Virus record (IMG/VR): IMGVR_UViG_3300028829_000675 | Coordinates: 1-33,830 of that record | Direction: 5' to 3' (one strand) | Length of the DNA stretch: 33,830 bases | Source: a virus | In this document: piece by piece, positions 1-18,133 of the stretch | Position numbering within the stretch: position 1 is the stretch's first letter | Layout: every line of letters starts with the position of its first letter | Position numbers and translations under genes: made by a program | Notes under the pieces: generated by a model | Seen by the model: the letters and a program-made list of their open reading frames with translations, nothing else | Database searches by the model: none | What the model was told of the DNA's origin: nothing

Positions 1-1
1 A

Positions 2-3703: not shown

Positions 3704-3861
3704 ACCTGAAGGAAGACCAGCAACGGATGGTCGCCCTCAAGGATGGTATTAAAATTATGTCTGACAAAGAGGAGGCCGAACTTGATCGTGAAGAAGATCG
3801 TCGTAAAATGCTGCTTGATCTCCTTGCTGATGTTGCCAAGTCAGAGGCCGCTGATGGCTGA
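3460..3861 (+). CDS. Portal protein, C-terminal fragment (out of frame with main part)
   Basis: The fragment starts at a GTG inside the second copy of the 29-bp duplication; this is not a natural start, and no SD fits it. The residues are highly charged and helical: an Ala/Gln-rich stretch (QYQMAVQQGMQDAIIAEAAA), then a long coiled coil (QGERVRLDEEKLQLDAIKD, followed by KNRQLDLKEDQQRM), ending with an Asp/Glu/Arg-rich helix. Long C-terminal helices of this kind form the barrel of P22-type portals and are common at the end of marine podovirus portals. Its stop overlaps the lysozyme start as ATGGCTGA, as expected for the true end of the portal gene. As written it would not be translated on its own. 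Confidence 0.8.
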   Translation: MVAQTVPPEQYQMAVQQGMQDAIIAEAAARVATANQQIVSGGTPEQQLVALQGERVRLDEEKLQLDAIKDAANIATKNRQLDLKEDQQRMVALKDGIKIMSDKEEAELDREEDRRKMLLDLLADVAKSEAADG

Positions 3862-4588
3862 ATCAATACCCGTGCCAAGACAAAAACCTGCCCCGCCAGA
3901 TCGGGTGGAAGAAGTACAAAAATTGTTACGTGCCGCCGGGTTTGGTGATGCAGCAGTAGCCGGAATCATGGGAAATATTCACGTTGAAACTGGAGGTACG
4001 TTTGACAGTAGAAAACGTCAGGATAACAACGGTCCGGGCCGTGGACTTTTCCAGATGGAGCCGGGTACGGGTAAATTAGATGAATACCAGATATGGTTAG
4101 ACCAGACGGGACGGGGAGATACTTCCGACAACCAGATTAAATTTTTTAGGGACACAATTTATAGCCCGGCAGAAATGGAGTCTATTGTCGGAAGAGATGT
4201 AGCTGGACACGGAAACGTCAGAAAACTTAGAAAGATAATGGACTCTGATGATCCTGAAATGATATCCCGGAGAGTGTCTGAACTATGGGAAAAACCCGGA
4301 AAACCACATATGGATCGACGGCTTGAGGCTACAAACAGATACTATCAAGAGAACCTGCCACCACTAGCATCTGATCTTGTTGCGAGTGCCCCTGTTAACA
4401 ACATAGAAGAACCAGAAGAACCAAACGGAATTAGAAATTTGATCTCAAACATTCTTGGTTCGTTCAGAAATAATAACGATACAGCTAGTTTTGATACATC
4501 TGAGTCTCGTAGTACACTTTCTGAGCGGAAATTTTCCCCGAAAGATGAAGCACAGTTTCAAAATCTTATGCAACGACTGAAGGAATAA
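3854..4588 (+). CDS. Phage tail-lysozyme-type peptidoglycan hydrolase
   Basis: 244 residues from the ATG at 3854, whose first 8 bases contain the portal stop. The open frame extends upstream, but that part overlaps the portal and has no signal. Residues ~15-165 match the phage tail lysozyme family (Phage_lysozyme2 type): a short helix (VEEVQKLLRAAGF), AAVAGIMGNIHVETGG with the probable catalytic Glu45, then GRGLFQMEPGTG, and a late region with RRVSELWEKPG and MDRRLEATNRYY. The last ~75 residues are polar and probably unstructured. No signal peptide or membrane helix is visible, so it either needs the distant 3TM holin or acts from the virion during entry. Its place directly after the portal favours a virion enzyme, but that is inference. 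Confidence 0.8.
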   Translation: MAESIPVPRQKPAPPDRVEEVQKLLRAAGFGDAAVAGIMGNIHVETGGTFDSRKRQDNNGPGRGLFQMEPGTGKLDEYQIWLDQTGRGDTSDNQIKFFRDTIYSPAEMESIVGRDVAGHGNVRKLRKIMDSDDPEMISRRVSELWEKPGKPHMDRRLEATNRYYQENLPPLASDLVASAPVNNIEEPEEPNGIRNLISNILGSFRNNNDTASFDTSESRSTLSERKFSPKDEAQFQNLMQRLKE

Positions 4589-4591
4589 ATT

Positions 4592-5794
4592 ATGGCAATT
4601 CAAGACGATATTATGGCGATGCTGTCGCAAATTCCTAGTGGTGGAAATCGGGCGACAGCCGCTGGTAAAGAAGGCGTAAACATGTACGGACGCATATCTG
4701 ATCTCATTACTGATGAAGATAAAATGTATAAGGCCCAGCGAGAACTCGGTTCGCTTTATGATCCAATTCAGTTTGGCAGTCTTGATGAGCAGATGCGACA
4801 AGACCCCCTGACAGGTGGGGGCGTTGCAGATATTATCCGCAAGTATATGGATGATGCCGGGGACGGTGTCCCTGACGATATGATTGTTGACGATACTCGT
4901 GCAGCCGAGCGAATGATGGAAGTATTGCCGTCTCCAAACACTGCTCCGCTTACACCTGTCGAAATTGAAGAACTTCCAGTATCTGCCCCACAAATCCCTG
5001 TCGATGCTGGACAACTTCCCCCGCCATTGCCCCGTCCTGATTTTGATCCAGAAGACGCTGAAAAACTTATTCGTGAAGCGGATCAGGGTCTTGCCGGTCT
5101 GATGGCCGGGCAGATGGCACCGCTTCGTGCGTCCGACATTGAACCCACGGCTGAATACAGGCCCGGACAGGCTAAACTTATGGGGGCTATGCGCGACATG
5201 TCTCAAAGTCCCTCTGCTCGTCGTCCTGAAGGAATGTCGGAGGAACAGAACCAAGCCTTTACGCGAATGATGAAATCGCAGATAGCCAACGAATTATTTC
5301 CACGGACCGGAATGAGTCCTGAAGATGCTTATGATCTTTTCATGAGCGGCGATGCAGAGGCAGAAGGCAAAATGATGGATCGTATGGGCGGTCCTAGCGG
5401 ACGTGAATATACAGAAAAACGCGGACGGCTAACTGAAGGCGACAGAGAATATCAGGCTCTTGCCATCGGCTCTACGTTTATCCCTTTCGCTGCTATTCCA
5501 AAACTTGCAGCACAAGTTGGTATCGGTGCTAGTGTAGTTAATAAATTTCTAAGCGCCGGACCAGCCGGAGTCAAAAGACTGGAGTCTATGATTAGGTCCA
5601 AACTTAAACCCATTCCTAATAAGACTCCGGGGGACAGCCAAACTATGAGGCAACGAGTCCCACTAACCCCTACTCGAAATCCTCTTCAGGAAAAACTATA
5701 TCAGCAGATGCAAAATCCCGGCGGACCTACAGGCGGTCTGGCCCGAGGCGGGGCTGTCCGCGACAACATCATGAATACTTATGGGAGAATGTAA
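4592..5794 (+). CDS. Unknown virion-module protein with C-terminal RGG-V motif
   Basis: 400 residues, starting 3 bp after the lysozyme stop. The first half is acidic, with a proline-rich stretch (residues ~125-155, including QLPPPLPRPDFDPEDAEKL). A hydrophobic segment (FIPFAAIPKLAAQVGIG, about residues 298-314) could touch membrane or pack inside a particle. The tail is basic and glycine-rich, ending GGLARGGAVRDNIMNTYGRM. The RGG-x-V element recurs in neighbouring proteins. The gene overlaps the next by one base (TAATG). No family was recognised; position and composition suggest a head-internal or ejected protein. Confidence 0.55.
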   Translation: MAIQDDIMAMLSQIPSGGNRATAAGKEGVNMYGRISDLITDEDKMYKAQRELGSLYDPIQFGSLDEQMRQDPLTGGGVADIIRKYMDDAGDGVPDDMIVDDTRAAERMMEVLPSPNTAPLTPVEIEELPVSAPQIPVDAGQLPPPLPRPDFDPEDAEKLIREADQGLAGLMAGQMAPLRASDIEPTAEYRPGQAKLMGAMRDMSQSPSARRPEGMSEEQNQAFTRMMKSQIANELFPRTGMSPEDAYDLFMSGDAEAEGKMMDRMGGPSGREYTEKRGRLTEGDREYQALAIGSTFIPFAAIPKLAAQVGIGASVVNKFLSAGPAGVKRLESMIRSKLKPIPNKTPGDSQTMRQRVPLTPTRNPLQEKLYQQMQNPGGPTGGLARGGAVRDNIMNTYGRM

Positions 5795-5997
5795 TGGCTA
5801 GTCAAGCAGAGGTAAACGAAGCCATAGGAATACGTAACACCCCCGGCGATAAAGACGACAAGTACGCTAAAAAGGTGATTAAAACTGCAACTCCTGAACA
5901 ATTAAAAACTGCACGGGAAGAAGTTGTTGTTAAAAAAGCAGCCGGTGGTCGGGTAGGTAAATCCTATCGCGGTTACGGTGCAGCACGTTGTAACTAG
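5794..5997 (+). CDS. Small basic protein with GG-x-V C-terminal motif
   Basis: 67 residues, start coupled to the previous stop (TAATG). Lysine-rich with a helical middle (ATPEQLKTAREEVVVKK) and the tail AAGGRVGKSYRGYGAARCN. The GGRV element resembles the RGG-x-V tail of the gene just upstream and elements in the ejection proteins. No known family. The stop codon overlaps the strong SD of the next gene (AGGAGG at 5996-6001). Confidence 0.55.
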   Translation: MASQAEVNEAIGIRNTPGDKDDKYAKKVIKTATPEQLKTAREEVVVKKAAGGRVGKSYRGYGAARCN

Positions 5998-6006
5998 GAG
6001 GCCACC

Positions 6007-6153
6007 ATGGCTAAGAGTAAACTATCTAAATTAAATTCTAAAACCTTTGGTAACACTGCCAAGATTCCTCAGTCAGATTTCAGTGTTCGTGCTGATCTTG
6101 AGGTTCTTCGTAAGTCTCCCAAGTCTGCTTATCAGATTAAAAAAGGTAAATAA
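6007..6153 (+). CDS. Very small lysine-rich protein
   Basis: 48 residues from the ATG at 6007, with a perfect AGGAGG SD five bases upstream. Sequence features are MAKSKLSKLNSKTFGNTAK at the N-terminus, a short acidic patch (VRADLEVL) and the tail AYQIKKGK. It lies in the same tight gene chain as its neighbours. The strong ribosome site is the main evidence that this short frame is real. Function unknown; a DNA- or capsid-associated accessory protein is possible given its charge. Confidence 0.5.
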   Translation: MAKSKLSKLNSKTFGNTAKIPQSDFSVRADLEVLRKSPKSAYQIKKGK

Positions 6154-6188
6154 ACCTTACCCCGTCTTCCCCACGTAACGGAGAAACA

Positions 6189-6377
6189 ATGTATTACGAA
6201 GACATAAAAAAACAAATAAAATCTCAGATTATTGAGTACGAGAAACTCCTTGGATCGGGAGCACCAGAAGACTATTCTTCCTATCGTCAATACGTTGGCA
6301 CCATCTCAGGATTGAAGTGGTGTCAGGATTTGGTCGCACAAATCCAGAAACGTACAGCGGAAGGAGATGACGACTAA
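6189..6377 (+). CDS. Small helical protein of unknown function
   Basis: 62 residues preceded by CGGAGAAACA-ATG. Predicted almost entirely helical: YYEDIKKQIKSQIIEYEKLL, then a loop with Tyr residues, then GLKWCQDLVAQIQKRTAEGDDD. Its stop shares one base with the co-chaperonin start (TAATG). Comparable ~60-residue proteins occur next to capsid genes in short-tailed phages, where they are usually unassigned. No catalytic motif is visible. Confidence 0.55.
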   Translation: MYYEDIKKQIKSQIIEYEKLLGSGAPEDYSSYRQYVGTISGLKWCQDLVAQIQKRTAEGDDD

Positions 6378-6796
6378 TGGTAATGGAACCAAAGATGGCA
6401 GGAGCCATCAGTAATGCCGACTGGGCACAGGACGATAACGTGGCGGACCCGTCCCCGCTCCCGGTAATTCCGGGCTACCGTATCTTGATCAGACCTCTTC
6501 AGGTTCAGGGCAAGACAAAAGGCTCGATACTACTCCCTGACAGTTTTCAAGATGACATCAACTACCTGACCACAGTAGGTCGTGTTGTTGCTGTCGGCGA
6601 TCTTGCATACGAAGATAGTGAAAAGTTTTCAAAAGGACCGTGGTGTAAGGTCGGAGATTTTGTCTGTTACGGCAAGATGACCGGGAACAAACTTCGGTAC
6701 AAGGGCGTAAACTTTATCCTGCTCTATGATGATCAGGTAATCATGAAAATTGAAGACCCGTCGGATGTTGATCCGATGTTTAATATCGCCTCATAA
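6377..6796 (+). CDS. GroES-like co-chaperonin (Cpn10 fold)
   Basis: 139 residues with AAGGAG at 6361-6366. Residues 31-125 follow the GroES order: PGYRILIRPLQVQGKTKGSI, then the mobile-loop hydrophobic triplet ILL (51-53, compare IVL in GroES) in GSILLPDS, VGRVVAVGDLAYED, the conserved WCKVGDFVCYGKMTGNKLRY and a final strand VNFILLYDDQVIMKIED. Viral GroES homologues such as T4 gp31 replace host GroES on GroEL so that the capsid protein can fold. Its place between portal and scaffold/capsid genes supports that role here. It has a longer N-terminus (about 30 extra residues) than bacterial GroES. Confidence in the fold is high; the client is inferred. Confidence 0.85.
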   Translation: MVMEPKMAGAISNADWAQDDNVADPSPLPVIPGYRILIRPLQVQGKTKGSILLPDSFQDDINYLTTVGRVVAVGDLAYEDSEKFSKGPWCKVGDFVCYGKMTGNKLRYKGVNFILLYDDQVIMKIEDPSDVDPMFNIAS

Positions 6797-6817
6797 GCGT
6801 AACCTATGGAGACAGCA

Positions 6818-7813
6818 ATGGCTGATGATGATTGGAACGAAGTTGATACTACGGCAGTATCAACAGACGAAGACAAAGTAGAGTACGAGCTTGAAGAAGA
6901 GCCTGTCAAAGAAGAAAAACTAGAAGTTGAGAAAGACACTGAAGAAGTTATCGAGGTAGACGAAGACGCCCCCGATCCTGATCCGGTAGAAACTGCCCCG
7001 GAACTAGATGGTGTTGAGACAGACGGGGCGCAGAAACGTATCCGTCAGCTTGTCCGACAACGTAAGGAACGTGAAGAGCAGATCATTGCACAACAGATGC
7101 AGGTCGCTGCCCTTGAAGAAAAACTTCAACAGACAGAGCAGAAGAACGCCGAAGTCTTCAAGAAGAACTATGACGTAACGGAACGTCAGCTTCAGGAAAA
7201 AACTGAGATGGCTCGTCAGCAGTATCTTCGGGCGTACGATGATGGCGACAAAGAAGCCATGCTGTCGGCGCAGGAAGCCATGATGGACGCCCGTCAGAAC
7301 ATCTCTCTGGTCAAACAGGGTCGTCAGGATGTTGAAAGATATTCTGAAGAACTTGTAAAACACGCCGAGACGGCTAATAATCAACAGGTAGCCCAGCAGC
7401 AACAGGCGTACGACCCCAAAGCTGTTGAATGGGCAGAGAGTAATACATGGTTCGGTCAGGATCAGGTAGCCACAGCCGCAGCACTGGCGATTGACGCAAC
7501 GCTGAAGAATGAAGGTTACGATCCGACGGACGATAATTTTTATAGAGAAGTTGATAAACGTCTCCGGACGGAACTTCCTAACAAGTTCGGGGCTGCTCCT
7601 GCCCCGGCAACACAGGAGCAAGTGGTTGGGGGACAGTCGCGTAAGTCGCCCGATTCTGTAGGTAAGAAAGGTAATCGGAAGGTTAAGTTGACCAAGTCTG
7701 ATATTGATCTTGCAACTAAATGGAATATACCACTTGAACGCTACGCCAAAGAAAAGGCAAAAGCAGACAAAGCAACAGAGACGGGCGATTATACGTCCAT
7801 CAATGTTGGTTAA
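6818..7813 (+). CDS. Capsid scaffolding protein
   Basis: 331 residues from the ATG at 6818, chosen over the ATG at 6806 because GGAGA (6808-6812) is correctly spaced from 6818. The N-terminal ~65 residues are extremely acidic. Residues ~70-190 are a long charged coiled coil rich in Gln/Glu/Lys/Arg (LVRQRKEREEQIIAQQMQVA, LQQTEQKNAEVFKK). A globular part follows (AVEWAESNTWFGQDQVATAA) with a lysine-rich C-terminus. This acidic head, coiled-coil middle and basic tail directly before the capsid gene is typical of phage scaffolds, which shape the procapsid and then leave. No protease domain is visible. Confidence 0.8.
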   Translation: MADDDWNEVDTTAVSTDEDKVEYELEEEPVKEEKLEVEKDTEEVIEVDEDAPDPDPVETAPELDGVETDGAQKRIRQLVRQRKEREEQIIAQQMQVAALEEKLQQTEQKNAEVFKKNYDVTERQLQEKTEMARQQYLRAYDDGDKEAMLSAQEAMMDARQNISLVKQGRQDVERYSEELVKHAETANNQQVAQQQQAYDPKAVEWAESNTWFGQDQVATAAALAIDATLKNEGYDPTDDNFYREVDKRLRTELPNKFGAAPAPATQEQVVGGQSRKSPDSVGKKGNRKVKLTKSDIDLATKWNIPLERYAKEKAKADKATETGDYTSINVG

Positions 7814-7829
7814 CGCGGAGGACGAAAAC

Positions 7830-8303
7830 ATGAGTGAAGCACGTAAAAGCCGAGTAGAGGAAGAGCGTTTCGACGAAGAGTTCACAGAGCCAAACTGGTT
7901 GTCAATCCCCGATTCTGTAGTTGATCGGTTCAAAGATGAAGGTATGGTCCTCCGATGGATCAGGATCACGGTCAATGGACAAGATGATTACAAGAACGTA
8001 GGCGACCGGCAAAATGATGGCTGGACTTTTGTCGAACCAAACGATGTTCCCGAAATGATGGTAAATTCTCGTATCGTGGACGAGGGACGATTTGAGGGTT
8101 GTGTTGTTCGTGGTGACGTAGCACTTGCGAAGGCTTCTGCAAAACGTATGCAGAGCCGACAAGAGTACTATCAGAACCGTTCTCGAACAATGATGGATAA
8201 TGTTAATGCCCAGTTGATGAATCAATCAAACTCGGCAATGCCTATTCATAACAATTCTAAATCGAGTGTAACTAGAGGAAGGACGCCTTCCTTTAATGAT
8301 TAA
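7830..8303 (+). CDS. Unknown head-module protein
   Basis: 157 residues. The start is the ATG at 7830 with GGAGG eight bases upstream; the frame stays open further upstream inside the scaffold gene without a ribosome site. The N-terminal half is acidic and folded-looking (LRWIRITVNGQDDYKNVGDR, then GWTFVEPNDVPEM), the middle has a VVRGDVALAKASAKRMQSR helix, and the last 50 residues are Asn/Ser/Gln-rich and probably disordered. It lies between scaffold and capsid-module genes. The RWIR..G..D..N...R...GW pattern is familiar from marine phage genomes, but no function is known to me. Confidence 0.6.
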   Translation: MSEARKSRVEEERFDEEFTEPNWLSIPDSVVDRFKDEGMVLRWIRITVNGQDDYKNVGDRQNDGWTFVEPNDVPEMMVNSRIVDEGRFEGCVVRGDVALAKASAKRMQSRQEYYQNRSRTMMDNVNAQLMNQSNSAMPIHNNSKSSVTRGRTPSFND

Positions 8304-8314
8304 GGAGTATCATT

Positions 8315-8893
8315 ATGTCTGGCTTGTCAAAAGCACTTAATGGCTTCGTCCCTTCGCGTCGTCGTGGTTCGGGTGCTAACAGCACCGGCTCCAGTCGTTA
8401 TCGGGTTGCAAACAGCTTTGGTAGCAACATCTTTTACGGCGATCTTGTGAAATTGGACGGTGGCTTTATTGAAGTTATCACCACAACCACGGACTATTCC
8501 ACCGGGGTATTTCAGGGTTGTGAATATATTGATCCAGTCTCGAAGCAGCCCACCTTCTCGAATTATTATCCGAGCGGTGTTTCTTCGGCGGTTGGAAATG
8601 TTACGGCATTCGTTGTTGACGATCCTGCCGCAACATACATTGTTCAGGCCGACGCCTCGGTATCCGTTGGCGACGTTAACCTGAACTTTGACGTAACTCT
8701 TGGGGCGGGTTCCTCCTTTACCGGTGTTTCCGGTTTTGGTATCATAGCCACTTCCCGAGTTGAAACAACTGCAATGGTCCGTGTCCTTGACATTTATGGT
8801 GAGCCGGGCAATAACTTTAGTGATGCAAATCCTAAAGTTGAGGTTCGTCTCGTCCAGCATGTTGACGCTGACGTATCTTCGCACGACGCATAG
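8315..8893 (+). CDS. Putative capsid-associated (decoration-like) protein
   Basis: 192 residues. AAGGAG overlaps the previous stop and sits seven bases before the ATG. A short Arg/Ser-rich N-terminus is followed by a beta-rich domain: GDLVKLDGGFIEV, GVFQGCEYIDP, FSNYYPSG, AFVVDDPAATYIVQADAS, NLNFDVTLGAGSSFTG and a final VRVLDIYGEPGN strand. There is no enzyme motif. The position immediately before the major capsid gene and the small all-beta character suggest a decoration or cement protein, or a minor head protein; this is inference from place and composition. Confidence 0.6.
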   Translation: MSGLSKALNGFVPSRRRGSGANSTGSSRYRVANSFGSNIFYGDLVKLDGGFIEVITTTTDYSTGVFQGCEYIDPVSKQPTFSNYYPSGVSSAVGNVTAFVVDDPAATYIVQADASVSVGDVNLNFDVTLGAGSSFTGVSGFGIIATSRVETTAMVRVLDIYGEPGNNFSDANPKVEVRLVQHVDADVSSHDA

Positions 8894-8907
8894 GGGAGTA
8901 ATTAACA

Positions 8908-9822
8908 ATGGCTATTAACCGCAGTAATATTGCAAAGGAACTGCTCCCCGGTCTTAACGCCGTCTTCGGTGTTGAGTACGGTGATGTAAACGACGAGCAG
9001 CTTCCTCTTTATGATGTCGAGAACTCTGATCGTTCTTTTGAAGAGGAAGTTCTCTTCACCGGGTTCGGTTCGGCCCCGACTAAAACAGAAGGCTCGGCGG
9101 TCCAGTTCGACACCGCGCAGGAATCGTACACCTCACGTTACAACCACGAGACTGTCGCCCTTGCATTTTCCGTCACGGAAGAAGCAATGGAAGACAATCT
9201 TTACGACACCTTCTCGAAGGTTCGTTCCCGTGGTCTGGCCCGTGCGATGGCGAATACCAAGCAGGTCAAAGCTGCTGATATCTTCAACAATGGTTTTGCC
9301 GCTGGTGACTTTGCCATCGGTGACGGTCAGGCGTTCTTCAGCGCCGATCATCCGACCATCGCTGCTGGTACACAGTCTAACCTTGCCGCCGCTGCTGATC
9401 TTTCAGAAGCAGCTATGGAGACTATTCTTACGAACATCCAGCTTATCGAGGATGATCGTGGTATTCTGATCGGGGCCGGAGCCAAGTCGCTTCACATTCC
9501 CCCGGCACTTCAGTTTACCGCTGAGAAGATTCTCATGTCTCCGGGTACAACGACTGGTGCATTCGCAAAGAATGACATCAATGCCATCCGTTCGATGGGT
9601 GCTGTACCGGGTGGTTACTTCGTGAACCGTCGTTTCACGGATGTTAACGGCTACTTTGTCAAGACTGATGTTCCGAACGGTGCGAAGATGTTCGTCCGTA
9701 CGCCGCTTCAGACGAAGATGGAAGAAGACTTCGACACTGGTAACCTGCGATTCAAGGCTCGGGAGCGTTACAGCTTCGGCGTCTCTGATTGGCGTGGTTA
9801 CTTTGGTTCTCAGGGTGCGTAG
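8908..9822 (+). CDS. Major capsid protein, Mu gpT-like HK97 fold
   Basis: 304 residues with GGGGAG nine bases before the ATG. The protein matches the Mu-type major head subunit (gpT) pattern: an N-terminal region with LYDVENSDRSFEEEVLFTGF, a SVTEEAMEDNLYD-F motif followed by ARAMANTKQVKAADIFNNGF, then FFSADHPTIAAGTQSNLAAA (about 145-164), the LIEDDRGILIGAGAKSLHIP block, and a C-terminal FKARERYSFGVSDWRGYFGS. It is the capsid building block and presumed client of the upstream co-chaperonin. No long N-terminal delta domain is present, in line with a separate scaffold gene. It is the last gene before a strong terminator, suiting a highly expressed product. Confidence 0.9.
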   Translation: MAINRSNIAKELLPGLNAVFGVEYGDVNDEQLPLYDVENSDRSFEEEVLFTGFGSAPTKTEGSAVQFDTAQESYTSRYNHETVALAFSVTEEAMEDNLYDTFSKVRSRGLARAMANTKQVKAADIFNNGFAAGDFAIGDGQAFFSADHPTIAAGTQSNLAAAADLSEAAMETILTNIQLIEDDRGILIGAGAKSLHIPPALQFTAEKILMSPGTTTGAFAKNDINAIRSMGAVPGGYFVNRRFTDVNGYFVKTDVPNGAKMFVRTPLQTKMEEDFDTGNLRFKARERYSFGVSDWRGYFGSQGA

Positions 9823-9831
9823 TACACGTCC

Positions 9832-9860
9832 TTGTTAAGCCAATTTTGGTGTGTGATAAT
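9832..9860 (+). promoter_or_regulatory. Sigma70-like promoter candidate overlapping the post-capsid terminator
   Basis: TTGTTA at 9832-9837 and GATAAT at 9855-9860 are separated by exactly 17 bases, with an extended -10 element (TG at 9852-9853). A transcript would begin near 9867, inside the left arm of the terminator hairpin. It lies in the only sizeable intergenic gap of the window. Matches to consensus are 4/6 and 5/6; use in vivo is unproven. Confidence 0.45.
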
Positions 9861-9861
9861 C

Positions 9862-9890
9862 GGGGGGCTGGGAGACTGGCCCCCCTTTTT
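9862..9890 (+). terminator. Intrinsic terminator after the major capsid gene
   Basis: A seven-base GC stem (GGGGGGC at 9862-9868 pairing with GCCCCCC at 9879-9885), extendable by a T-G wobble, closes a loop of about ten bases and is followed directly by TTTTT (9886-9890). It starts 40 bases after the capsid stop. It would end or reduce capsid-operon transcripts before the mini-protein and tail genes. Confidence 0.85.
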
Positions 9891-9918
9891 ATAAGACCTG
9901 TCAGGTCGGGAGAATTAA

Positions 9919-10218
9919 ATGTCAACAAATATCAATTATGCTTATGCAGCAGCAACTGCCACGGGGGATGCTGCCGGTCTTACAAAACCCATGTTAAAAG
10001 TACAGAATGATGTGTCGTTGTCTGACACACGTATTCAGGGAGTCCATGCTACTGGTGTCGGTGTTTTTACTATTTCAGACGAAAACGCCACAAAGATTAA
10101 ATTTAATAGCGTAGCAGACGCCGAGATTTATATTGCTGATTCTGGGGTACGTTTTGACGGTGCAGTTACTGTTGTCATGCCAACCACCGCCTCTACCGTT
10201 GCTGTCCAGTACGGCTAA
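9919..10218 (+). CDS. Small beta-rich protein after the capsid gene
   Basis: 99 residues with GGGAG about seven bases before the ATG. It starts the transcription segment downstream of the terminator. Rich in Ala/Thr/Val with alternating strands (FTISDENATKIKFNSVADAE, GVRFDGAVTVVMPTTAS), no cysteine and no charged clusters. The size and beta character suit a small virion component (decoration, or a collar/fibre accessory). No known family was recognised. Confidence 0.55.
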   Translation: MSTNINYAYAAATATGDAAGLTKPMLKVQNDVSLSDTRIQGVHATGVGVFTISDENATKIKFNSVADAEIYIADSGVRFDGAVTVVMPTTASTVAVQYG

Positions 10219-10220
10219 TT

Positions 10221-10496
10221 ATGGCTATTGATTATCGTGGCGAGAAGTTCTCCGGATACAATAAACCGAAGCGGACTCGCGGCCACCCAAAAAAATCTCA
10301 TGCTGTTCTTGCCAAAGAGGGTAGCAAAGTAAAACTTATCCGGTTCGGACAGCAAGGTGTCAGCGGCTCACCTAAAAAAACAGGCGAGTCTGACTCGTCT
10401 CGTAATCGTCGAAAGTCTTTCAAGGCCCGTCATGCCAAGAATATTAAAAGAGGCAAGATGTCCGCAGCCTACTGGGCAGATAAGGTTAAATGGTAA
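10221..10496 (+). CDS. Conserved short basic protein
   Basis: 91 residues starting 2 bp after the previous stop. Strongly basic. Recognisable blocks are KSHAVLAKEGSKVKLIRFGQ, GVSGSP, then RRKSFKARHAKNIKRGKMSA and the C-terminal AAYWADKVKW. I associate this pattern with a small protein conserved in many marine phages and without an assigned function. The charge suggests nucleic-acid contact, for example packing with virion DNA. It is the first of four basic mini-proteins in this stretch. Confidence 0.65.
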   Translation: MAIDYRGEKFSGYNKPKRTRGHPKKSHAVLAKEGSKVKLIRFGQQGVSGSPKKTGESDSSRNRRKSFKARHAKNIKRGKMSAAYWADKVKW

Positions 10497-10500
10497 ACTC

Positions 10501-10731
10501 ATGGATAGTATCAATCTTCCTATTGCCACCGTTGTTATCATTCTCATCCAACTCGGGGGTGGTATATGGTTTGGATCAAACATATCATCTCGCGTCTCCG
10601 CAGTTGAAAATAGACTTGAATCTTCAGAAATTTTGCCTCTTGGATCAGCAAATAGATTATCAGAAATGTCTGACCGACTCGCTCGGATTGAGACTAAGCT
10701 GGAGCTTCTGATGGAATATAATAATAAATGA
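10501..10731 (+). CDS. Small bitopic membrane protein with coiled coil
   Basis: 76 residues from the ATG at 10501; a longer open frame exists upstream but overlaps the basic gene before it. A hydrophobic helix (INLPIATVVIILIQLGGGIW) is followed by a coiled coil (VSAVENRLESSEIL, then RLSEMSDRLARIETKLELLM). The stop overlaps the next start as ATGA. One N-terminal membrane helix with an exposed coiled coil is seen in phage lysis accessory proteins (inner-membrane spanin, antiholin), but no lipoprotein partner is visible, so the role stays open. Confidence 0.6.
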   Translation: MDSINLPIATVVIILIQLGGGIWFGSNISSRVSAVENRLESSEILPLGSANRLSEMSDRLARIETKLELLMEYNNK

Positions 10732-10907
10732 CTTATGTTTTTATCTTTGCAACGCTCTTCAGTGGGCTTATTCATGAAATAGAAATTACAGGATTTCAGA
10801 CAAAAGAAACTTGTCAGATGTATGCAGGAGTTACGCTAGAAGCATTCTCACAGGCTGGTCATAAGATTCTTGAGGCCGAGTGTGTTCCTATAGAAAAGGA
10901 AGCATAG
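10728..10907 (+). CDS. Tiny exported or membrane protein with two cysteines
   Basis: 59 residues, beginning ATGA on the previous stop, so translation is probably coupled. The N-terminus MTYVFIFATLFSGLIHEIEI is hydrophobic and could be a signal or anchor. Cys29 and Cys52 (ETCQMYAGV, AECVPIE) would suit a disulphide outside the cytoplasm. There is no lipobox. Coupling to a bitopic coiled-coil gene suggests the two act together at the envelope; this is inference. Confidence 0.5.
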   Translation: MTYVFIFATLFSGLIHEIEITGFQTKETCQMYAGVTLEAFSQAGHKILEAECVPIEKEA

Positions 10908-10910
10908 ATT

Positions 10911-11171
10911 ATGACAATTCGTAGATCAAACATACCGGCTCAAGTAACACGCAGCCCTGCCAGAAAAAAACCGACCCTGCTAAAAGCCGGGGGAAAACCT
11001 AAATCAAAGGTAAATGAAGCTGGGAACTATACCAAACCATCGATGCGTAAAAACTTATTTAAGAAAATTAAAGCCGGTAGTAAAGGCGGCAAACCGGGCC
11101 AGTGGTCGGCACGGAAAGCGCAGATGTTGGCAAAAGAATACAAAGCCAAGGGCGGGGGCTATCGCGGCTAA
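10911..11171 (+). CDS. Conserved short basic protein (GGKPGQWSARKAQ type)
   Basis: 86 residues, starting 3 bp after the preceding stop. The N-terminus is Arg/Lys/Pro-rich. The conserved core is YTKPSMRKNLFKKIKAGSKG, then GGKPGQWSARKAQMLAKEYK and KGGGYRG at the end. I recognise this core as a recurrent marine-phage protein of unknown function. It is highly basic and probably binds nucleic acid. The stop shares one base with the next start (TAATG). Confidence 0.65.
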   Translation: MTIRRSNIPAQVTRSPARKKPTLLKAGGKPKSKVNEAGNYTKPSMRKNLFKKIKAGSKGGKPGQWSARKAQMLAKEYKAKGGGYRG

Positions 11172-11431
11172 TGGCCCTGAAGAAATCACAGAAGTCGCTC
11201 AAGAAGTGGACCAAGCAGAAGTGGCGGACCAAGTCGGGCAAACCGTCAACGCAGGGATCAAAGGCAACAGGCGAACGGTATCTTCCGGAGAAGGCTATCA
11301 AAGCCCTGAGTTCAAAAGAGTACGCCGCAACCTCTTCGGCGAAAAGGAAAGGGACAAAGCGAGGAAAGCAGTATGTCCCCCAGCCAAAGAAAGTTGCAAA
11401 GAAAGTAAAACCCTACAGGAAAAAAGGATAA
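11171..11431 (+). CDS. DUF5872-like basic protein
   Basis: 86 residues from the ATG at 11171; the open frame continues upstream but that part overlaps the previous gene. The pattern KSLKKWTKQKWRTKSGKPS, then ATGERYLPEKAIKALSSKEY, AATSSAKRKGTKRGKQYV and PKKVAKKVKPYRKKG fits the short virus-associated DUF5872 family as I remember it. The family name should be confirmed. About a third of residues are Lys/Arg and acidic residues are few, so nucleic-acid binding or DNA condensation in the virion is plausible. Confidence 0.65.
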   Translation: MALKKSQKSLKKWTKQKWRTKSGKPSTQGSKATGERYLPEKAIKALSSKEYAATSSAKRKGTKRGKQYVPQPKKVAKKVKPYRKKG

Positions 11432-11435
11432 GATA

Positions 11436-11555
11436 ATGGCTATGAAACCCCGGATGAAAAAGAAAAAGACTATGATGCGTGGCGGCGGTAAGGTAAAGTC
11501 TCCGAAGAAAATGATGCGTGGAGGCAAGACTGGTGCAAGGAAGACCCGTAAGTGA
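11436..11555 (+). CDS. Tiny Met/Lys/Arg-rich protein with repeated MMRGG motif
   Basis: 39 residues with AGGATAAGATA before the ATG. MMRGGGKV and MMRGGKTG form two near-identical units, embedded in lysines (MKPRMKKKKT at the start, ARKTRK at the end). It contains one acidic residue or none. It overlaps the following gene by 23 bases and provides that gene's ribosome site. It is too short for family assignment; the placement after three other basic mini-proteins supports it as real. Confidence 0.5.
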   Translation: MAMKPRMKKKKTMMRGGGKVKSPKKMMRGGKTGARKTRK

Positions 11556-12099
11556 TTACATTCTCGATATTCAAAAATGGACCCGTGAAGTTCTGTCTGT
11601 CCCTTCTGAAGAGTTGGGCGGACAGCCTCCGTGCCCTTACGCACAAGGCACGTGGGATGCTGGACTTGTCGCTGTCGGTATTTGCCACAGTCTGGATGAT
11701 GTCACTGACGCTCTTGATTTTTTTCCCGCTAGTAGTAGTGATGTTTTCATCGCTGTTCTTCCTGATGTTGAAAGACCTTCTGCTGAAGAACTGGCCCGTT
11801 ATGTGGAAGAAAAGAACACAGGTCTGGTGGCAGAAGACATGTGGCTTATGGCGTACCACCCAGAAGACGATCCATCCGAATACGGATTAGATTATTTAGA
11901 TGTTGAGTGGGAGCCTGTAGTACCTGAAGAGTACAGCATGATCTTTATCCAGTATCTTTCAAAGTTGAAGGACGCATCCTATAATCTTGAACAGCAGGGC
12001 TATTATGATAAGTGCCCATGGGGGACGTACCGTGATCTCGTCCATCGCCGTAACGAGAAAGCAGTAGCTCATGACAAGTTCAGGCCAGACGACATTTGA
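11533..12099 (+). CDS. Unknown protein, distant DUF1415-like pattern
   Basis: 188 residues from the GTG at 11533, chosen because GGAGG (11520-11524) is eight bases upstream; an earlier GTG at 11518 lacks this spacing. Visible blocks are an N-terminal WTREVLSVP...PCPYAQG, a central strand VFIAVLPDVE, then MWLMAYHPEDDPSEYG and a C-terminal GYYDKCPWGTYRDLVHRRNE. The order W..V....CP(F/Y)A, then HP, then a terminal (R/K)-x-P-(W/Y)...L..R resembles cellular DUF1415 proteins; the similarity is remote and the function unknown. The tail overlaps the connector gene by 29 bases. Confidence 0.55.
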   Translation: MQGRPVSDYILDIQKWTREVLSVPSEELGGQPPCPYAQGTWDAGLVAVGICHSLDDVTDALDFFPASSSDVFIAVLPDVERPSAEELARYVEEKNTGLVAEDMWLMAYHPEDDPSEYGLDYLDVEWEPVVPEEYSMIFIQYLSKLKDASYNLEQQGYYDKCPWGTYRDLVHRRNEKAVAHDKFRPDDI

Positions 12100-12742
12100 T
12101 CTTACGATTGACGATGTGATCGAACAGGCTTTTGAGCAGGTCGGCGGTCAGCCTATCAGCGGTGAGGAAGCACGGTCGGCACGTATATGTCTTAACCTGC
12201 TGATGACAGAGTGGCAGAACCGTGGTGTTCTCCTCTGGAAACTTGCAGATACCCCGGTGACTGTCAGCACGTCTGTCACCGAATATACTCTTGATTCAGA
12301 TATTATTGATAGTCTCCAGACTACTATTACTGTGAACGGTAATGATCTGGAGATGAATCGCATTACTTATCAGGACTATATGAAGCTGCCTGATAAGACG
12401 CAGACAGGTCGTCCCACACAGTTCTCGTTTCTCCGGGGGAAAGACAATGTCAGCATGGTTGTCTGGCCGACTCCTGAACAGACCTACACCATGAACTTAC
12501 TGGCAATGACTCGGGTACAGGATGTGACAGCCTCGGCGATCCAGACATCTGATATGCCGTTCCGTTTTCTCCCCCCGCTTGTTGACGGACTGGCGTACAA
12601 ATTGTCATCCCGTCGTCCCGGCATTGATGCAGGAAGGATCGGCTTTCTCAAGCAGCAGTACGAGGAATCGTTTGCTTTTGCTCTTGAAGAAGATCGTCAG
12701 CGTACGTCGATGTTTATCCGTCCCCGTCTTGGGCCTCTCTGA
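12071..12742 (+). CDS. Head-tail connector, P22 gp4-like tail accessory factor
   Basis: 223 residues. The N-terminal helical part carries the gp4-type signature (EEARSARICLNLLMTEWQNR followed by GVLLWKL), then a beta part (VTVSTSVTEYTLDSDIIDSL), a YQDYMKLPDKTQTGRPTQFS block, and the C-terminal RFLPPLVDGLAYKLSSRRPG helix region. P22 gp4 binds beneath the portal, closes the filled head and receives the rest of the short tail. Presence with a gp10-like nozzle and an adaptor, and the lack of tube or sheath genes, supports a podovirus-type tail. Confidence 0.75.
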   Translation: MTSSGQTTFDLTIDDVIEQAFEQVGGQPISGEEARSARICLNLLMTEWQNRGVLLWKLADTPVTVSTSVTEYTLDSDIIDSLQTTITVNGNDLEMNRITYQDYMKLPDKTQTGRPTQFSFLRGKDNVSMVVWPTPEQTYTMNLLAMTRVQDVTASAIQTSDMPFRFLPPLVDGLAYKLSSRRPGIDAGRIGFLKQQYEESFAFALEEDRQRTSMFIRPRLGPL

Positions 12743-13029
12743 TGGCTACAGGTCGGCGGTCAAACGCTATATGCGACAGGTGTGGATGGCGGTGTAAGTA
12801 CATCGAGCTTCTCAATGAAGTTGAGGTAGGTGTCTGGGTCTGCTCAGAATGTTATGATGGTGCATTCAATGCAGTCAATCATCCACAGAATATGACGAAC
12901 GTGGACACCACAGACGATCCGTCTCTTGATCATCCGCGTCCTGATACCACGGCAGATACGTCAGCAACAGATGATTCGTGGACACCGGATATGTCGTCTC
13001 CGTCGTATCATAACGGACAGGAAAATTAG
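12742..13029 (+). CDS. Small zinc-ribbon protein with acidic tail
   Basis: 95 residues; start overlaps the previous stop (TGATG). Two cysteine pairs, CDRC (11-14) and CSEC (34-37), with an intervening WRCKYIELLNEVEVGVWV, form a probable zinc ribbon. The rest is Asp/Thr/Pro/Ser-rich and probably disordered, with a SLDHPRPDT element. Similar zinc-ribbon mini-proteins sit beside gp4-like connector genes in other short-tailed phages. Role unknown; structural stabilisation of the neck is one option. Confidence 0.65.
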   Translation: MATGRRSNAICDRCGWRCKYIELLNEVEVGVWVCSECYDGAFNAVNHPQNMTNVDTTDDPSLDHPRPDTTADTSATDDSWTPDMSSPSYHNGQEN

Positions 13030-13031
13030 TC

Positions 13032-13688
13032 ATGGCACTTAACTACTCACAGCTACGAACCAACATAATTGAATCTACGGAGAATGATGGGGCAGAGTTT
13101 GAGTCTCAGCTTGATCAGTTTATCGGACGTGCAGAAACAAGACTGACTATTGATATTGACGATGCAGGTCTGACCCAGCATCAGTACACACAGGTTGTTG
13201 CGTCTGATCCGTTCCTTGGATTGCCGACCGGATTTACGATTGTCGAGTCTGCCAACATAACGGCTGACGGGACACGTATCAATCTGCTTAACAGAAACGT
13301 AGACTTTATTGCCGACTACTGGCCGGTACGTACATCTGTCGGTACGCCAAAGTATTACGGTCTCTGGGACGACAATACCATGATTATCGCCCCGACACCG
13401 GTCTCAGCATTCCCGATTGAACTGGCGTTTGTTGTGGCCCCGACAGTCCTGACTTCTGTTAACTCGACAAACTATTATACCGACGAAACACCTAATGCCC
13501 TGTTCTATGCGTGTATGGTTGAGGCAGAGCTTTTTAACAAGAACTACGAAGTTGTTAAAGTCTGGTCTGAACTTTACACTAAGGAAATTGAATTGCTCCG
13601 TAACCGTGCCCGTCGTGCCCGTCGTGACGATCTGGAGCCGCGCAATCAACAGGCAAACAATGCCAACACGCTTACCGGAGGCTCATAA
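13032..13688 (+). CDS. Phage adaptor protein (SU10-like)
   Basis: 218 residues. The N-terminus has a helical ESQLDQFIGRAETRLTIDID, then FLGLPTGFTIVESANITADG, a middle GTPKYYGLWDDNTMIIAPTP and the characteristic ETPNALFYACMVEAELFNK helix followed by a WSELYTKEIELLRNRARRAR helix. This layout is that of the SU10-type adaptor family, which links portal/connector to the short tail. It lies between connector and fibre genes and overlaps the next gene as TAATG. The Asn/Gln-rich tail is probably flexible. Confidence 0.7.
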   Translation: MALNYSQLRTNIIESTENDGAEFESQLDQFIGRAETRLTIDIDDAGLTQHQYTQVVASDPFLGLPTGFTIVESANITADGTRINLLNRNVDFIADYWPVRTSVGTPKYYGLWDDNTMIIAPTPVSAFPIELAFVVAPTVLTSVNSTNYYTDETPNALFYACMVEAELFNKNYEVVKVWSELYTKEIELLRNRARRARRDDLEPRNQQANNANTLTGGS

Positions 13689-14113
13689 TGGCTATTACTT
13701 CAGGAATTTCTATCTCGTTCCGTAAAGAGATTATGCTTGGTGAGCATGATCTTGATACGAACTCAATTAAACTTGCGCTTTATTCTAGTTCTGCTTCTCT
13801 GTCGGACGGCACCACAGTCTATACTACCTCGAACGAAGTTGTCGGGACAGGCTATTCAGCCGGGGGTGTTGTTCTTACAGGCATTGATGTTACTACTGAT
13901 TCGTCCGTGGCTGTTGTGTCAATCACCGACGCTGTCGTCAGCACGGCGACGATCACTGCCCGAGGTGCCCTAATTTATAATTCTTCAAACTCAAATAAAG
14001 CAATCGCAGTGTTCGACTTCGGGGCTGACAAAACTTCTACCGCAGGTGACTTCACAATTCAGTTCCCGTCTGCTGCTGCCGCAACGGCGATCATCCGAAT
14101 CAAGTCTTCGTAG
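13688..14113 (+). CDS. Conserved beta-rich virion protein
   Basis: 141 residues starting on the previous stop. The pattern SFRKEIMLGEHDLD, SIKLALYSSSASLSDGTTVY, EVVGTGYSAGGVVL, then ARGALIYNSSNSNKAIAVFD and FTIQFPSAAAATAIIRI is one I associate with a widespread small phage virion protein. It is all-beta with no enzyme motif. Its place between the adaptor and the first fibre suggests a tail or fibre-attachment component. Assignment beyond virion protein is not possible from sequence alone. Confidence 0.65.
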   Translation: MAITSGISISFRKEIMLGEHDLDTNSIKLALYSSSASLSDGTTVYTTSNEVVGTGYSAGGVVLTGIDVTTDSSVAVVSITDAVVSTATITARGALIYNSSNSNKAIAVFDFGADKTSTAGDFTIQFPSAAAATAIIRIKSS

Positions 14114-14122
14114 GTCTGACCC

Positions 14123-16879
14123 ATGGCACTGGTTCTTAAAGACAGGGTCAAGGAACAAACCACGACCACCGGCACCGGGACTGTTACCCTTGGTGGTGCC
14201 GTGTCTGGTTTTGAGACGTTCTCCGCAGTTGGTAACGGCAATACGACATACTATGCTATTGTCAGCCAGACTGCCGACGAGTGGGAAGTTGGTCTTGGGA
14301 CGTACACCGCCGCAGGTACTCTGCTGTCCCGCGACACCATCCTTGAATCATCTAACTCTGACGCTGCTGTAAACTTCTCAGCCGGGACAAAGGATGTCTT
14401 CGTCACGTACCCGTCCGACAAGGCTGTCTATGCTGATGCTGCCGGGGAGGTGTCGGTTACCCGTGCAACGTCGGCCACGTTTGCCACCTCTGCTACATTT
14501 GCTACATCAGCAACCAACGCAACGACTGCTATTAACGTATCGGGCTTTGGTATTGGAGGCGGTGTTCTATTAAATAGTGGGGTGTCTGTTAGCAGTATCC
14601 TTGACGAAGACAACATGGCCTCCAATAGTGCCACAGCACTATCTACGCAGCAGTCCATCAAAGCCTACGTCGATGCACAGGTAGGCACTGCTGACACCCT
14701 CTCAGAAGTTCTGGCACTGGGTAACACCACTGGCGGCACTGATATCGCCATGACGGGTGGTGATAAGATTACCAACTTTGAATCAACTGGTATCAACGAT
14801 GATGCTACCAGTACTGCCATTACCATCGACAGCAGCGGCAGGGTCGGTATTGGGGTTAGCACCATTGACTCGGCACTTAGCACAAAGCTGCACGTTGCTG
14901 GAACCATTCGAACAGATACAGGTTCTGTTAGTGCTAACCCGGCAATCGTGTTTGACCACGACAATTTTGGCGATGCAGATGCTAACTACATCATGCTGGA
15001 TCGTACAAGTGAAGCAATGCGGTTTAGTGTCAATGCCTCAGAACGTGTGCGTATCGACAGCAGCGGCAACGTCGGTATTGGGACGAGTAGTTCTGCTAAT
15101 AAATTAGAAGTTAATGGGGCAATAGTTGCTCTAGGTGCAGTAACTGCCTATACAAATACGGGTTTGTACTTACAGAACAAAGGTTCAAGTGTTTTTGATG
15201 TAGGTGCTTGGCGTTCAGGAGCTTCTGTAGCTGAATTAACTTTTTCAACTGACTCTGGTTCTGACGCTGCTCCAGTAGAACGTATGCGCATCAACAGCAG
15301 CGGCAATGTCGGTATTGGTACTTCGTCTCCTCGTGCACCATTGCACGTTCAACCGGCTGGAGGCGCTTCGGATGATTTTAATGTTTTAGTTTCGCAGTTT
15401 CGGCCAAACATTGTCCTTGAAGACCTTTCCGGCTCTTCAACAGATTTTCAGTTTTTTGTTGATGCAAACGCTTTTCAAATACGCTCTGGAGATGCAAGTA
15501 CAGATACAAAATTAGCTTCTGAACGTATGCGTATCACCAGCGCGGGTAATGTCGGTATTGGTAATGCGGCACCGAGTTATTTACTTGATCTGTACAAGGC
15601 GGCAAGTACTGTCGCCCGAGTTCGAAACTCGGCAGCTACTGGAGGAACACCCAGCGTAACTCACGGCGAGTTTGTTATTGAGTCCACCGATGCCAACATG
15701 GGTATGCAGTTCCTTGGATCGACAACTGCTGATCAGCGTATTCTTTTTAGTGACACGGCTGCGGCTTCAGGACAAATCGTATATAACCATACTTCTAATT
15801 ACATGGCTCTATCTGCGAATGGCTCAGAACGTGTGCGTATTGACAGCAGCGGCAATGTCGGTATTGGAACGACGGCACCTGCTGAAAAATTAGATGTCAA
15901 TGGTAATATAAAAACCAATGCAATCTTCTCAGATAAACCAGCAGACTTTTGGAGTGCAGGAGCTAGTTTTTTTGGGGTGGATACCCTCGGGTCGCTCACT
16001 ACCCAAGGTTCATATGAAGTTACCCTAACCGCAAATGGGTATCGTGGGGCGGGTTCTCTTTGGGTTTCACAGAACAACAACTCTCAAACAGGTGCTACTC
16101 AACTAACATTAAACCCGGCAGGGTATATGAGTTTCCGCACTGAAGCAGTAAAAGCCACTGGCGCTGGTGCTACTGTTACAGAACGTATGCGTATCACCAG
16201 CGCGGGTCTGGTCGGTATTGGTACTTCGTCTCCGACTGCTGAACTGGATATTGAATCCACGTCGCCAGAAATTCATCTAAACGATAGTGATGGAGTTCTA
16301 GGCGCGGCAGTAACTAGTCGAATGATATTTCAAGCAGGTGGGTCGACACAGGGTCGTGTTGGATTTGGAACGTCCGCCGGAAATATGGCTCTCACAAATC
16401 TTCAAGGCAACCTGTTTATACAAGCGGATACGAACAACGCACAGGCAAATAGTTATATCACCTTTAGTGTCGATAATTCTACCAAGATGCGTATCACCAG
16501 CACGGGTAACGTCGGTATTGGAACTACCGCTCCTGCCAAGCAGCTTCACATAACTAAATCGGCTAAAGCAGACATCGGCGTACTAACAGACGGTGCGACG
16601 ATCACACCTAACTTTGATGCCAAACAAAACTTTATAGTAACTTTGGGCGGCAATCGCACACTGGCGAATCCAACAAATGCTGATGGAGGTCAGACAGGTT
16701 CAATTTTTGTCGTGCAAGATGCAACAGGTGGTCGTACACTTTCATTTGGTGCTAATTGGAAATTTGCCGGAGGTACTGCCCCGACACTTTCAACCGGCGC
16801 TAACGCTGTAGATCGCATTGACTACATCGTAAAATCGTCTACACAAATACATGCAGTGGTATCACTCAATCTAAGTTAG
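14123..16879 (+). CDS. Long tail fibre with seven GNVGIG-type repeats
   Basis: 918 residues. The N-terminal ~110 residues (LKDRVKEQTTTTGTGTVTLG, LLSRDTILESSNSDAAVNFS) form a virion-attachment domain common in marine phage fibres. An Ala/Thr/Ser repeat (ATFATSATFATSATNA, near 125-140) and a TALSTQQSIKAYVDAQVG linker follow. Residues ~230-810 hold seven RxRIxSSGNVGIGTxxP-like units spaced about 80-120 residues apart, separated by variable beta domains. There is no recognisable C-terminal S74 chaperone; instead the last ~100 residues form a domain also found at the end of the 21031-21945 product. It probably binds host surface glycans. Confidence 0.85.
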   Translation: MALVLKDRVKEQTTTTGTGTVTLGGAVSGFETFSAVGNGNTTYYAIVSQTADEWEVGLGTYTAAGTLLSRDTILESSNSDAAVNFSAGTKDVFVTYPSDKAVYADAAGEVSVTRATSATFATSATFATSATNATTAINVSGFGIGGGVLLNSGVSVSSILDEDNMASNSATALSTQQSIKAYVDAQVGTADTLSEVLALGNTTGGTDIAMTGGDKITNFESTGINDDATSTAITIDSSGRVGIGVSTIDSALSTKLHVAGTIRTDTGSVSANPAIVFDHDNFGDADANYIMLDRTSEAMRFSVNASERVRIDSSGNVGIGTSSSANKLEVNGAIVALGAVTAYTNTGLYLQNKGSSVFDVGAWRSGASVAELTFSTDSGSDAAPVERMRINSSGNVGIGTSSPRAPLHVQPAGGASDDFNVLVSQFRPNIVLEDLSGSSTDFQFFVDANAFQIRSGDASTDTKLASERMRITSAGNVGIGNAAPSYLLDLYKAASTVARVRNSAATGGTPSVTHGEFVIESTDANMGMQFLGSTTADQRILFSDTAAASGQIVYNHTSNYMALSANGSERVRIDSSGNVGIGTTAPAEKLDVNGNIKTNAIFSDKPADFWSAGASFFGVDTLGSLTTQGSYEVTLTANGYRGAGSLWVSQNNNSQTGATQLTLNPAGYMSFRTEAVKATGAGATVTERMRITSAGLVGIGTSSPTAELDIESTSPEIHLNDSDGVLGAAVTSRMIFQAGGSTQGRVGFGTSAGNMALTNLQGNLFIQADTNNAQANSYITFSVDNSTKMRITSTGNVGIGTTAPAKQLHITKSAKADIGVLTDGATITPNFDAKQNFIVTLGGNRTLANPTNADGGQTGSIFVVQDATGGRTLSFGANWKFAGGTAPTLSTGANAVDRIDYIVKSSTQIHAVVSLNLS
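14829..16540 (+). repeat. Seven dispersed direct repeats in the fibre gene
   Basis: Units centre near 14829, 15040, 15280, 15525, 15830, 16185 and 16485. Each encodes (E/K)RxRI(D/N/T)S(S/A)GxVGIG. Copies at 15521 and 16181 share the same first 27 bases (beginning gaacgtatgcgtatcaccag), while others differ by a few bases. Such DNA-level similarity can promote recombination that swaps or deletes the variable domains between units. Confidence 0.85.
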
Positions 16880-16889
16880 GAGAAAATTT

Positions 16890-17213
16890 ATGGCAATTAC
16901 ATGGTCTATAGTACAGCTTGACTACGCACTATCCGAAGACGGACATACCGACGTGGTCAATAACTCGCACTGGCAGTGCATCGACGAAGATGCGTCCGGT
17001 AATCAGGCACGGGTCTACGGGTCCGTGGCAATACCGACAGACGATCTGTCGAGCTTTACCCCGTACACTAATATCACCGAAGCAGAGGCCGTCCAGTGGA
17101 CGAAGGATGCTCTCGGCGCAGAAGAAGTTGCCTCTATTGAGGCGAACGTGGCCGCACAGCTACAGCTGATCGAAAACCCGACTGAGGGGAGCGGCACCCC
17201 TTGGTCTAACTAA
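16890..17213 (+). CDS. DUF7936-like small protein
   Basis: 107 residues; AGGAG overlaps the fibre stop, seven bases before the ATG. The pattern TWSIVQLDYALSEDGHTDVV, SHWQCIDED, VYGSVAI, YTNITEAEAVQWTKDALG and a C-terminal LIENPTEGSGTPWSN fits the DUF7936 group of phage proteins as I recall it. These commonly sit beside fibre genes. Function is unknown; a fibre accessory role is suggested by neighbours only. Confidence 0.65.
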   Translation: MAITWSIVQLDYALSEDGHTDVVNNSHWQCIDEDASGNQARVYGSVAIPTDDLSSFTPYTNITEAEAVQWTKDALGAEEVASIEANVAAQLQLIENPTEGSGTPWSN

Positions 17214-17224
17214 TGGAGATACAG

Positions 17225-17431
17225 ATGGGAAAAAATGAAAAAACCCCCATTATTATTGATGACGTTGAGTACCAGTACGAAGACATGTCCCCGGAACAGC
17301 AGACGATGATCAATCACATTGCTGATCTGGACCGTAAACTATCATCGGCCCGATTTAATGTAGACCAGCTAGAAGTTGGCAAACAGGCTTTTGTCAACAT
17401 GCTGACAGAGTCGTTGAAGACTGAGGAATAA
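17225..17431 (+). CDS. Small coiled-coil protein, DUF6447-like
   Basis: 68 residues from the ATG at 17225, preferred over the ATG at 17213 because GGAG (17215-17218) is correctly placed for it. A short beta segment (PIIIDDVEYQYEDMSPEQQ) precedes a coiled coil (INHIADLDRKLSSARFNVDQ, LEVGKQAFVNMLTESL). This matches the DUF6447 layout as I remember it (short strand pair, then helix). It often neighbours fibre genes; a small chaperone or accessory is possible. Confidence 0.55.
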   Translation: MGKNEKTPIIIDDVEYQYEDMSPEQQTMINHIADLDRKLSSARFNVDQLEVGKQAFVNMLTESLKTEE

Positions 17432-17433
17432 CA

Positions 17434-18120: not shown

Positions 18121-18133
18121 GGCGTAACGACGC

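Follow-up and report, generated by a model that had tools for sequence, protein, structure and literature searches.

The window analysed here is the whole of a 33,830-nt stretch (positions 1-33,830) of IMG/VR record IMGVR_UViG_3300028829_000675, a viral fragment that carries the virion module of a tailed marine phage. Portal, major capsid, SU10-type adaptor and tail-fibre-like genes are present (Table 1), as is a gene for a GroES-like co-chaperonin, which has the same place in Pelagibacter phage HTVC023P, phage DSL-LC04, CRP-902 and Caulobacter phage RW. The subject of this report is the region just downstream of the major capsid gene, where a putative promoter and a putative terminator together span 59 bases.

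Table 1. Features of the window at and around the capsid gene boundary.
Feature	Position	Strand	Evidence or remark
Portal gene	1406-3703		
GroES-like co-chaperonin gene	6377-6796		inside virion module
Major capsid protein gene	8908..9822	+	phrog_371 major head protein E=3e-19; Pfam Phage_capsid_4 E=5e-13; Mu-like gpT E=6e-8
-35 hexamer TTGTTA	9832..9837	+	TTG invariant in 13/13 variants
Extended -10 (TGT)	9852..9854	+	invariant, 13/13 variants
-10 hexamer GATAAT	9855..9860	+	ATAAT invariant after an initial G or A, 13/13 variants
Terminator hairpin, 10 pairs, GAGA loop	9862..9885	+	folding; covariation
Predicted transcription start, in left hairpin arm	9867	+	7 nt 3' of -10; purine in 13/13 variants
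U-tract TTTTT	9886..9890	+	sequence
Perfect 13-nt palindrome GACCTGTCAGGTC	9895..9907	+	downstream-transcript leader, between terminator and ribosome-binding site
Ribosome-binding site GGGAG	9908..9912	+	sequence
First gene of downstream unit, 99-aa small all-beta protein	9919..10218	+	AlphaFold2; same-place homologues in most relatives
91-aa gene (phrog_7595)	10221-10496		
Terminator-like hairpin with TTTTTTT	10990-10971	-	opposite neighbouring genes; chance possible
SU10-type adaptor genes	12071-12742, 13032-13688		

Several other features of the neighbourhood may be recorded here. The palindrome in the leader folds as a 5-bp hairpin; it is partly kept in two relatives (L110 and L111) and absent from those of the L092 type. 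The 91-aa gene matches a stretch of the unrelated marine podoviruses SIO1, P12053L and CRP-4, with 78-84% DNA identity over 76-87 bases, and homologues were found in no fewer than 595 stretches of viral contigs, so that it is a widespread and strongly conserved small gene. The terminator-like hairpin on the minus strand sits within a short plus-strand reading frame. Scanning the window for Rfam families and tRNAs gave no matches.

A candidate promoter and terminator after the capsid gene

The earlier note had placed a TTGTTA-17-GATAAT promoter candidate with an extended -10 next to a strong hairpin terminator, and its coordinates all hold: TTGTTA begins nine bases past the capsid stop codon, and a single base, C9861, lies between the -10 and the stem. 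The candidate has the hexamers, a spacing within 16-18 nt and the TGn before the -10 that define a sigma70 extended -10 promoter, its 17-nt spacer ending in TGT, and it agrees at 9 of 12 positions with the sigma70 consensus, the use of which is an assumption here.

How much weight should such a match be given? A plain 9-of-12 scan of the window finds 26 matches when 21.6 are expected, so that a bare match is uninformative, generic matches being no commoner than in shuffles. The full pattern TTG-N17-TG-NN-ATAAT is another matter, as it occurs once in the window against 0.10 expected in shuffles. The top promoter score in the post-capsid region exceeds those of all 300 shuffles (p=0.003), and across the clade of the window p ranges from 0.003 to 0.02. 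Because plus-strand promoter-like sites occur in the background at 4.4e-4 per base, the chance that one would end within 6 nt upstream of the sole strong terminator is about 0.003.

The hairpin, GGGGGGCTGG-GAGA-CTGGCCCCCC, folds at -21.9 kcal/mol (z=-3.5), and eight of its ten pairs are G-C; with its adjoining U-tract it has the make-up of an intrinsic terminator, and it is the best of the 22 terminator-like sites in positions 1-20000. A U-tract this short, five T residues and then an A, may let some polymerases through. Among 56 strong terminators in the fetched contigs, the geometry in which a promoter abuts the hairpin is found in five cases where 0.07 would be expected, all of them in the lineage of the window.

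Conservation in close relatives and across the capsid family

Eighty capsid relatives were fetched. A second capsid query gave largely the same contigs, and DNA pattern scans of IMG/VR added the closest ones; the scans with 14-15-base patterns yielded relatives plus many chance matches, which were sorted by context, while an exact pattern scan with variable gaps gave no matches in a collection that may omit the window's own record. From these sources came at least 13 distinct variants of the post-capsid site, with capsid proteins 89-100% identical, which were aligned ungapped on the -10. The 13 are close relatives, and reduce to about four distinct promoter haplotypes when near-copies are merged.

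The earlier note had proposed checking both elements in relatives, and both are kept. All 13 variants have the -35, a spacer of exactly 17 nt and TGTRATAATY, followed by GGGG. Columns are invariant at 11 of the 15 motif positions and at one of the 14 spacer positions (Fisher p=0.0005, an optimistic value because the variant rows are related). In two variants, L217 (TTGCCA) and L256 (TTGTCT), the spacer bears no relation to that of the window, yet the hexamer cores and the 17-nt spacing persist, which argues for a promoter signature rather than a mere stretch of conserved DNA. The hairpin is preserved in another manner, by compensatory change, as is expected of an intrinsic terminator. Its arms vary together as GGGGGG/CCCCCC, GGGGGAG/CTCCCCC and GGGGAGG/CCTCCCC, three pairs having been replaced in both arms. 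Paired cells make up 98.9% of the alignment, against 47-71% in slid controls, and none of the 500 shuffles and none of the slid controls reaches the covariation score. All of the variant hairpins are strong, at -19 to -24 kcal/mol.

The post-capsid regions of L205, L238 and L266 are mosaic when compared with those of the window, L092 and L177, one promoter half being combined with hairpins and downstream genes that differ from variant to variant. This suggests recombination at the post-capsid boundary.

How widespread is the arrangement? The post-capsid gap was surveyed in at least 93 distinct loci, which were mapped on the capsid tree and assigned to classes by hand from sequences and scores. 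Class alpha is the clade of the window, at least 13 rows in one clade (SH-aLRT 99), with the promoter upstream and the predicted start in the left arm. In class beta the -35 (TTGTAT, TTGCAT, TTTCGT or TTCACA) is part of the hairpin, in its loop or right arm, and the -10 comes past the U-tract, so that the right arm and U-tract lie within the spacer, mostly of 17 nt, and the start would fall downstream of the terminator. To this class belong a clade of at least 14 rows, HTVC023P (TTCACA-17-TATAAT, with the -10 directly after the U-tract) and DSL-LC04, which has a weaker match with a 16-nt spacer (TTGCAA/TATGCT); in the L008/L034 clade TTGTAT/TTGCAT-17-TATAAT shares bases with the terminator. 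Interlocks of the beta type lie just past the capsid stop codon in L008 (at about 3990-4005 of its locus), L034, L012 and L426, the last being HTVC023P. In class gamma the U-tract itself, or the bases just past it, serve as the -35 (L062, L063 and L071 are examples). In Caulobacter phage RW a terminator is followed by a promoter-like match to what we take to be the Caulobacter housekeeping consensus. From these comparisons, a terminator plus promoter at the capsid boundary appears to be recurrent across lineages, with differing overlap geometry.

The remaining class comprises at least 47 rows, mostly with gaps of 55-70 nt, in which a hairpin lies immediately upstream of the ribosome-binding site and no promoter was recognised; HTVC027P and the sister group of the window are among them. 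The predicted arrangement is thus not universal, as the nearest sister group in the capsid tree (L004, L005 and L009) has the hairpin and no recognisable promoter. The hairpin of these rows, which include L003, L010, L024, L035 and L506 (HTVC027P), is strong, mostly lacks a U-tract and lies between the capsid stop codon and the next ribosome-binding site; it is kept although neither a promoter nor a clear terminator accompanies it. Does the kept hairpin of this class serve in mRNA 3'-end protection or processing?

One might think, then, that the terminator alone matters, that the promoter-like sequence of the window is due to chance or is some other conserved element, such as a protein-binding site, and that the downstream genes are transcribed by read-through. 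Promoter-like matches are common in the window, as noted, and the large group of relatives that has a hairpin without a promoter would fit as well. But the hexamers and their spacing persist where the spacer has been replaced, the promoter score of the clade is unlikely to arise by chance, and in other lineages a promoter also accompanies 36 of the 39 rows with a strong U-tract, though these amount to only 3-6 independent contrasts. We consider the terminator-only explanation very unlikely. By count, the co-occurrence of strong U-tract and promoter across the family is highly significant (Fisher p=3e-7); a correlation of the two was nevertheless discarded, as it is not significant when kinship on the tree is respected.

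A proposed boundary that stops arriving polymerases and starts new ones

Both signals are kept in relatives, even where the DNA between the hexamers is replaced, so the end of the capsid mRNA and the start of the next operon probably coincide. We propose that these 59 bases form a compact boundary between operons, in which a terminator for the capsid mRNA overlaps a promoter whose own transcript escapes that terminator, both being read by a host RNA polymerase of the sigma70 type; we put the probability of this reading at roughly 0.77. Polymerases arriving from upstream through the capsid gene would transcribe the entire G-rich hairpin and stop at the TTTTT, the hairpin also providing a structured 3' end for the capsid mRNA. 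The extended -10 promoter, TTGTTA-17-TGTGATAAT, which overlaps the same DNA, would start a new RNA at about 9867, within the left arm. Lacking five of the six G residues of the lower stem, this RNA would not rebuild the terminator, and would continue into the decoration-like gene and then the neck and tail genes. With a separate terminator and promoter, capsid output and downstream output would be set by different promoters. Sequences and computed folds establish that both elements exist and are conserved, that the hairpin arms covary and that the stem is lost; actual termination, the position of the start and the effect on expression we infer. That the host polymerase does the reading is suggested by the sigma70-type consensus and by the reliance of related phages on the host enzyme: neither HTVC027P, which depends on host RNA polymerase, nor CRP-901 or CRP-902 encodes a polymerase of its own (PMC12753301, PMC10149686).

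The earlier note had argued that an RNA started near 9867 would lack most of the left-arm G-run and so pass the terminator, and the comparison of relatives supports this. In computed folds the RNA from 9867 reaches only -5.0 kcal/mol, compared with -21.9 when the stem is complete, and across the variants a start 7 nt past the -10 costs about 13 to 17 kcal/mol. At that position a purine is found in all 13 variants (A in eight, G in five), consistent with initiation there. In the truncated RNA unpaired C residues separate the residual stem from the U-tract. With the lower stem lost and unpaired C before the U-tract, the new transcript is expected to escape.

Might the promoter instead be real, and its transcript mostly stopped at 9890? 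In Escherichia coli a single terminator serves the upstream frd operon and sits at the promoter of ampC, so that the ampC transcript includes the hairpin and is subject to attenuation; the boundary of the window would likewise end the capsid mRNA and throttle the downstream operon. The order of promoter and terminator is that of frd/ampC, and starts at 9865 or 9866 would leave part of the stem in place (-11.6 or -8.3 kcal/mol in a short fold). A start at 9862-9864 would keep most or all of the stem, and attenuation would require starts at 9862-9866, while a transcript holding the complete hairpin would have to begin at or before 9862. Against attenuation, with a canonical start, 7 nt past the -10, five of the six lower-stem pairs are lost and unpaired C residues come between the remaining stem and the U-tract, the purine at the start position is kept in 13 of 13 variants, and the U-tract would fall at only about +20 to +24 of the transcript. 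Attenuation of this kind seems highly improbable.

A further proposal would add to the escape reading without excluding it. RNA polymerase that terminates at 9890 might stay on the DNA, slide about 20-60 bp and restart at the overlapping promoter, so that capsid-operon traffic would be re-registered into the downstream operon. Retention of bacterial RNA polymerase after intrinsic termination, with restart at nearby promoters, is frequent (PMC6978380, PMC6978322, PMC11347151), and in vitro 37-55% restart downstream and 43% upstream (PMC6978380); within the capsid family, three geometries are seen in which the promoter touches the terminator or shares bases with it. Compact genomes alone, however, could account for the overlap, and since recycling operates over about 1000 bp (PMC11347151), contact between promoter and terminator is not needed for it. 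We regard such recycling here as unlikely. A bolder form is about as doubtful: in this abundant marine capsid family the boundary between capsid and next gene would be a recycling hub that arose in separate lineages as an interlocked terminator-promoter, with the start in the left arm, the -35 in the loop or the U-tract serving as -35, and passes terminating host polymerase to the next operon.

Which gene products would be placed under the new promoter? The earlier note spoke of a separation of capsid from tail expression. The boundary element itself stands, but the first gene past it is small and all-beta and has the place of the annotated cement protein gene of the related phage DSL-LC04. 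Adaptor-like genes start about 2 kb, and a tail-fibre-like gene about 4 kb, beyond this boundary gene, so the phrase "capsid versus tail" should be "capsid versus decoration, neck and tail". The predicted structure of the 99-aa product (AlphaFold2, pLDDT 87.5) consists entirely of strands. Sequence comparison found no match to the DSL-LC04 cement protein and no solved relative, and structure comparison returned only weak matches to beta-sandwich or cupin-like folds; homology to cement proteins was set aside as unsupported by sequence and weakly matched in structure. Our guess, from position and fold, is that a head decoration role is likelier than a tail role.

Comparison with known systems

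In the arrangement proposed for the window, one short stretch would be read in two ways, stopping polymerases that arrive and passing those that start locally. A literature phrase search on terminator-promoter overlap found nothing relevant. In frd/ampC the downstream transcript keeps the hairpin, whereas in the window the start would lie inside the left arm and the hairpin would be lost. HTVC023P and the L008/L034 clade have a terminator and a sigma70-like promoter at the same boundary, but in the reverse order. The T7-like phages (T7, LUZ100) have a strong terminator directly past the major capsid gene, and capsid expression is separately controlled (PMC10134795); they differ in using a phage-encoded RNA polymerase and its own promoters, with no sigma70 promoter interlocked with the hairpin. 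No polymerase gene was found among the 20 proteins of the window that were scanned, the window being a fragment.

Because some relatives have opposite geometries or no promoter, the family offers a ready-made series for comparison, in which terminator-promoter spacing might be related to capsid-to-decoration ratios, and in which the recycling of terminated polymerase might be followed.

The closest likeness is to the filamentous phage M13. Gene III of M13 presumably has its own promoter at the junction with gene VIII. In the Ff sequence (V00604), the major coat gene VIII is followed by TCGAAA-17-TACAAT, whose -10 ends a single base short of a rho-independent hairpin and its U-tract, and the next virion gene follows the hairpin, a geometry equal to that of the window. 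Both thus have a -10 no more than 2 nt from a terminator stem after a major coat gene, which is likeness and not homology: M13 is an unrelated ssDNA phage with a weaker, non-extended promoter, and shares neither gene nor sequence homology with the window. Since the M13 junction has the geometry of the window, this kind of arrangement is already known. What the window and its relatives add is an extended -10 form that is conserved within an uncultured marine lineage, the evidence from covariation, and the alternative interlocks in relatives.
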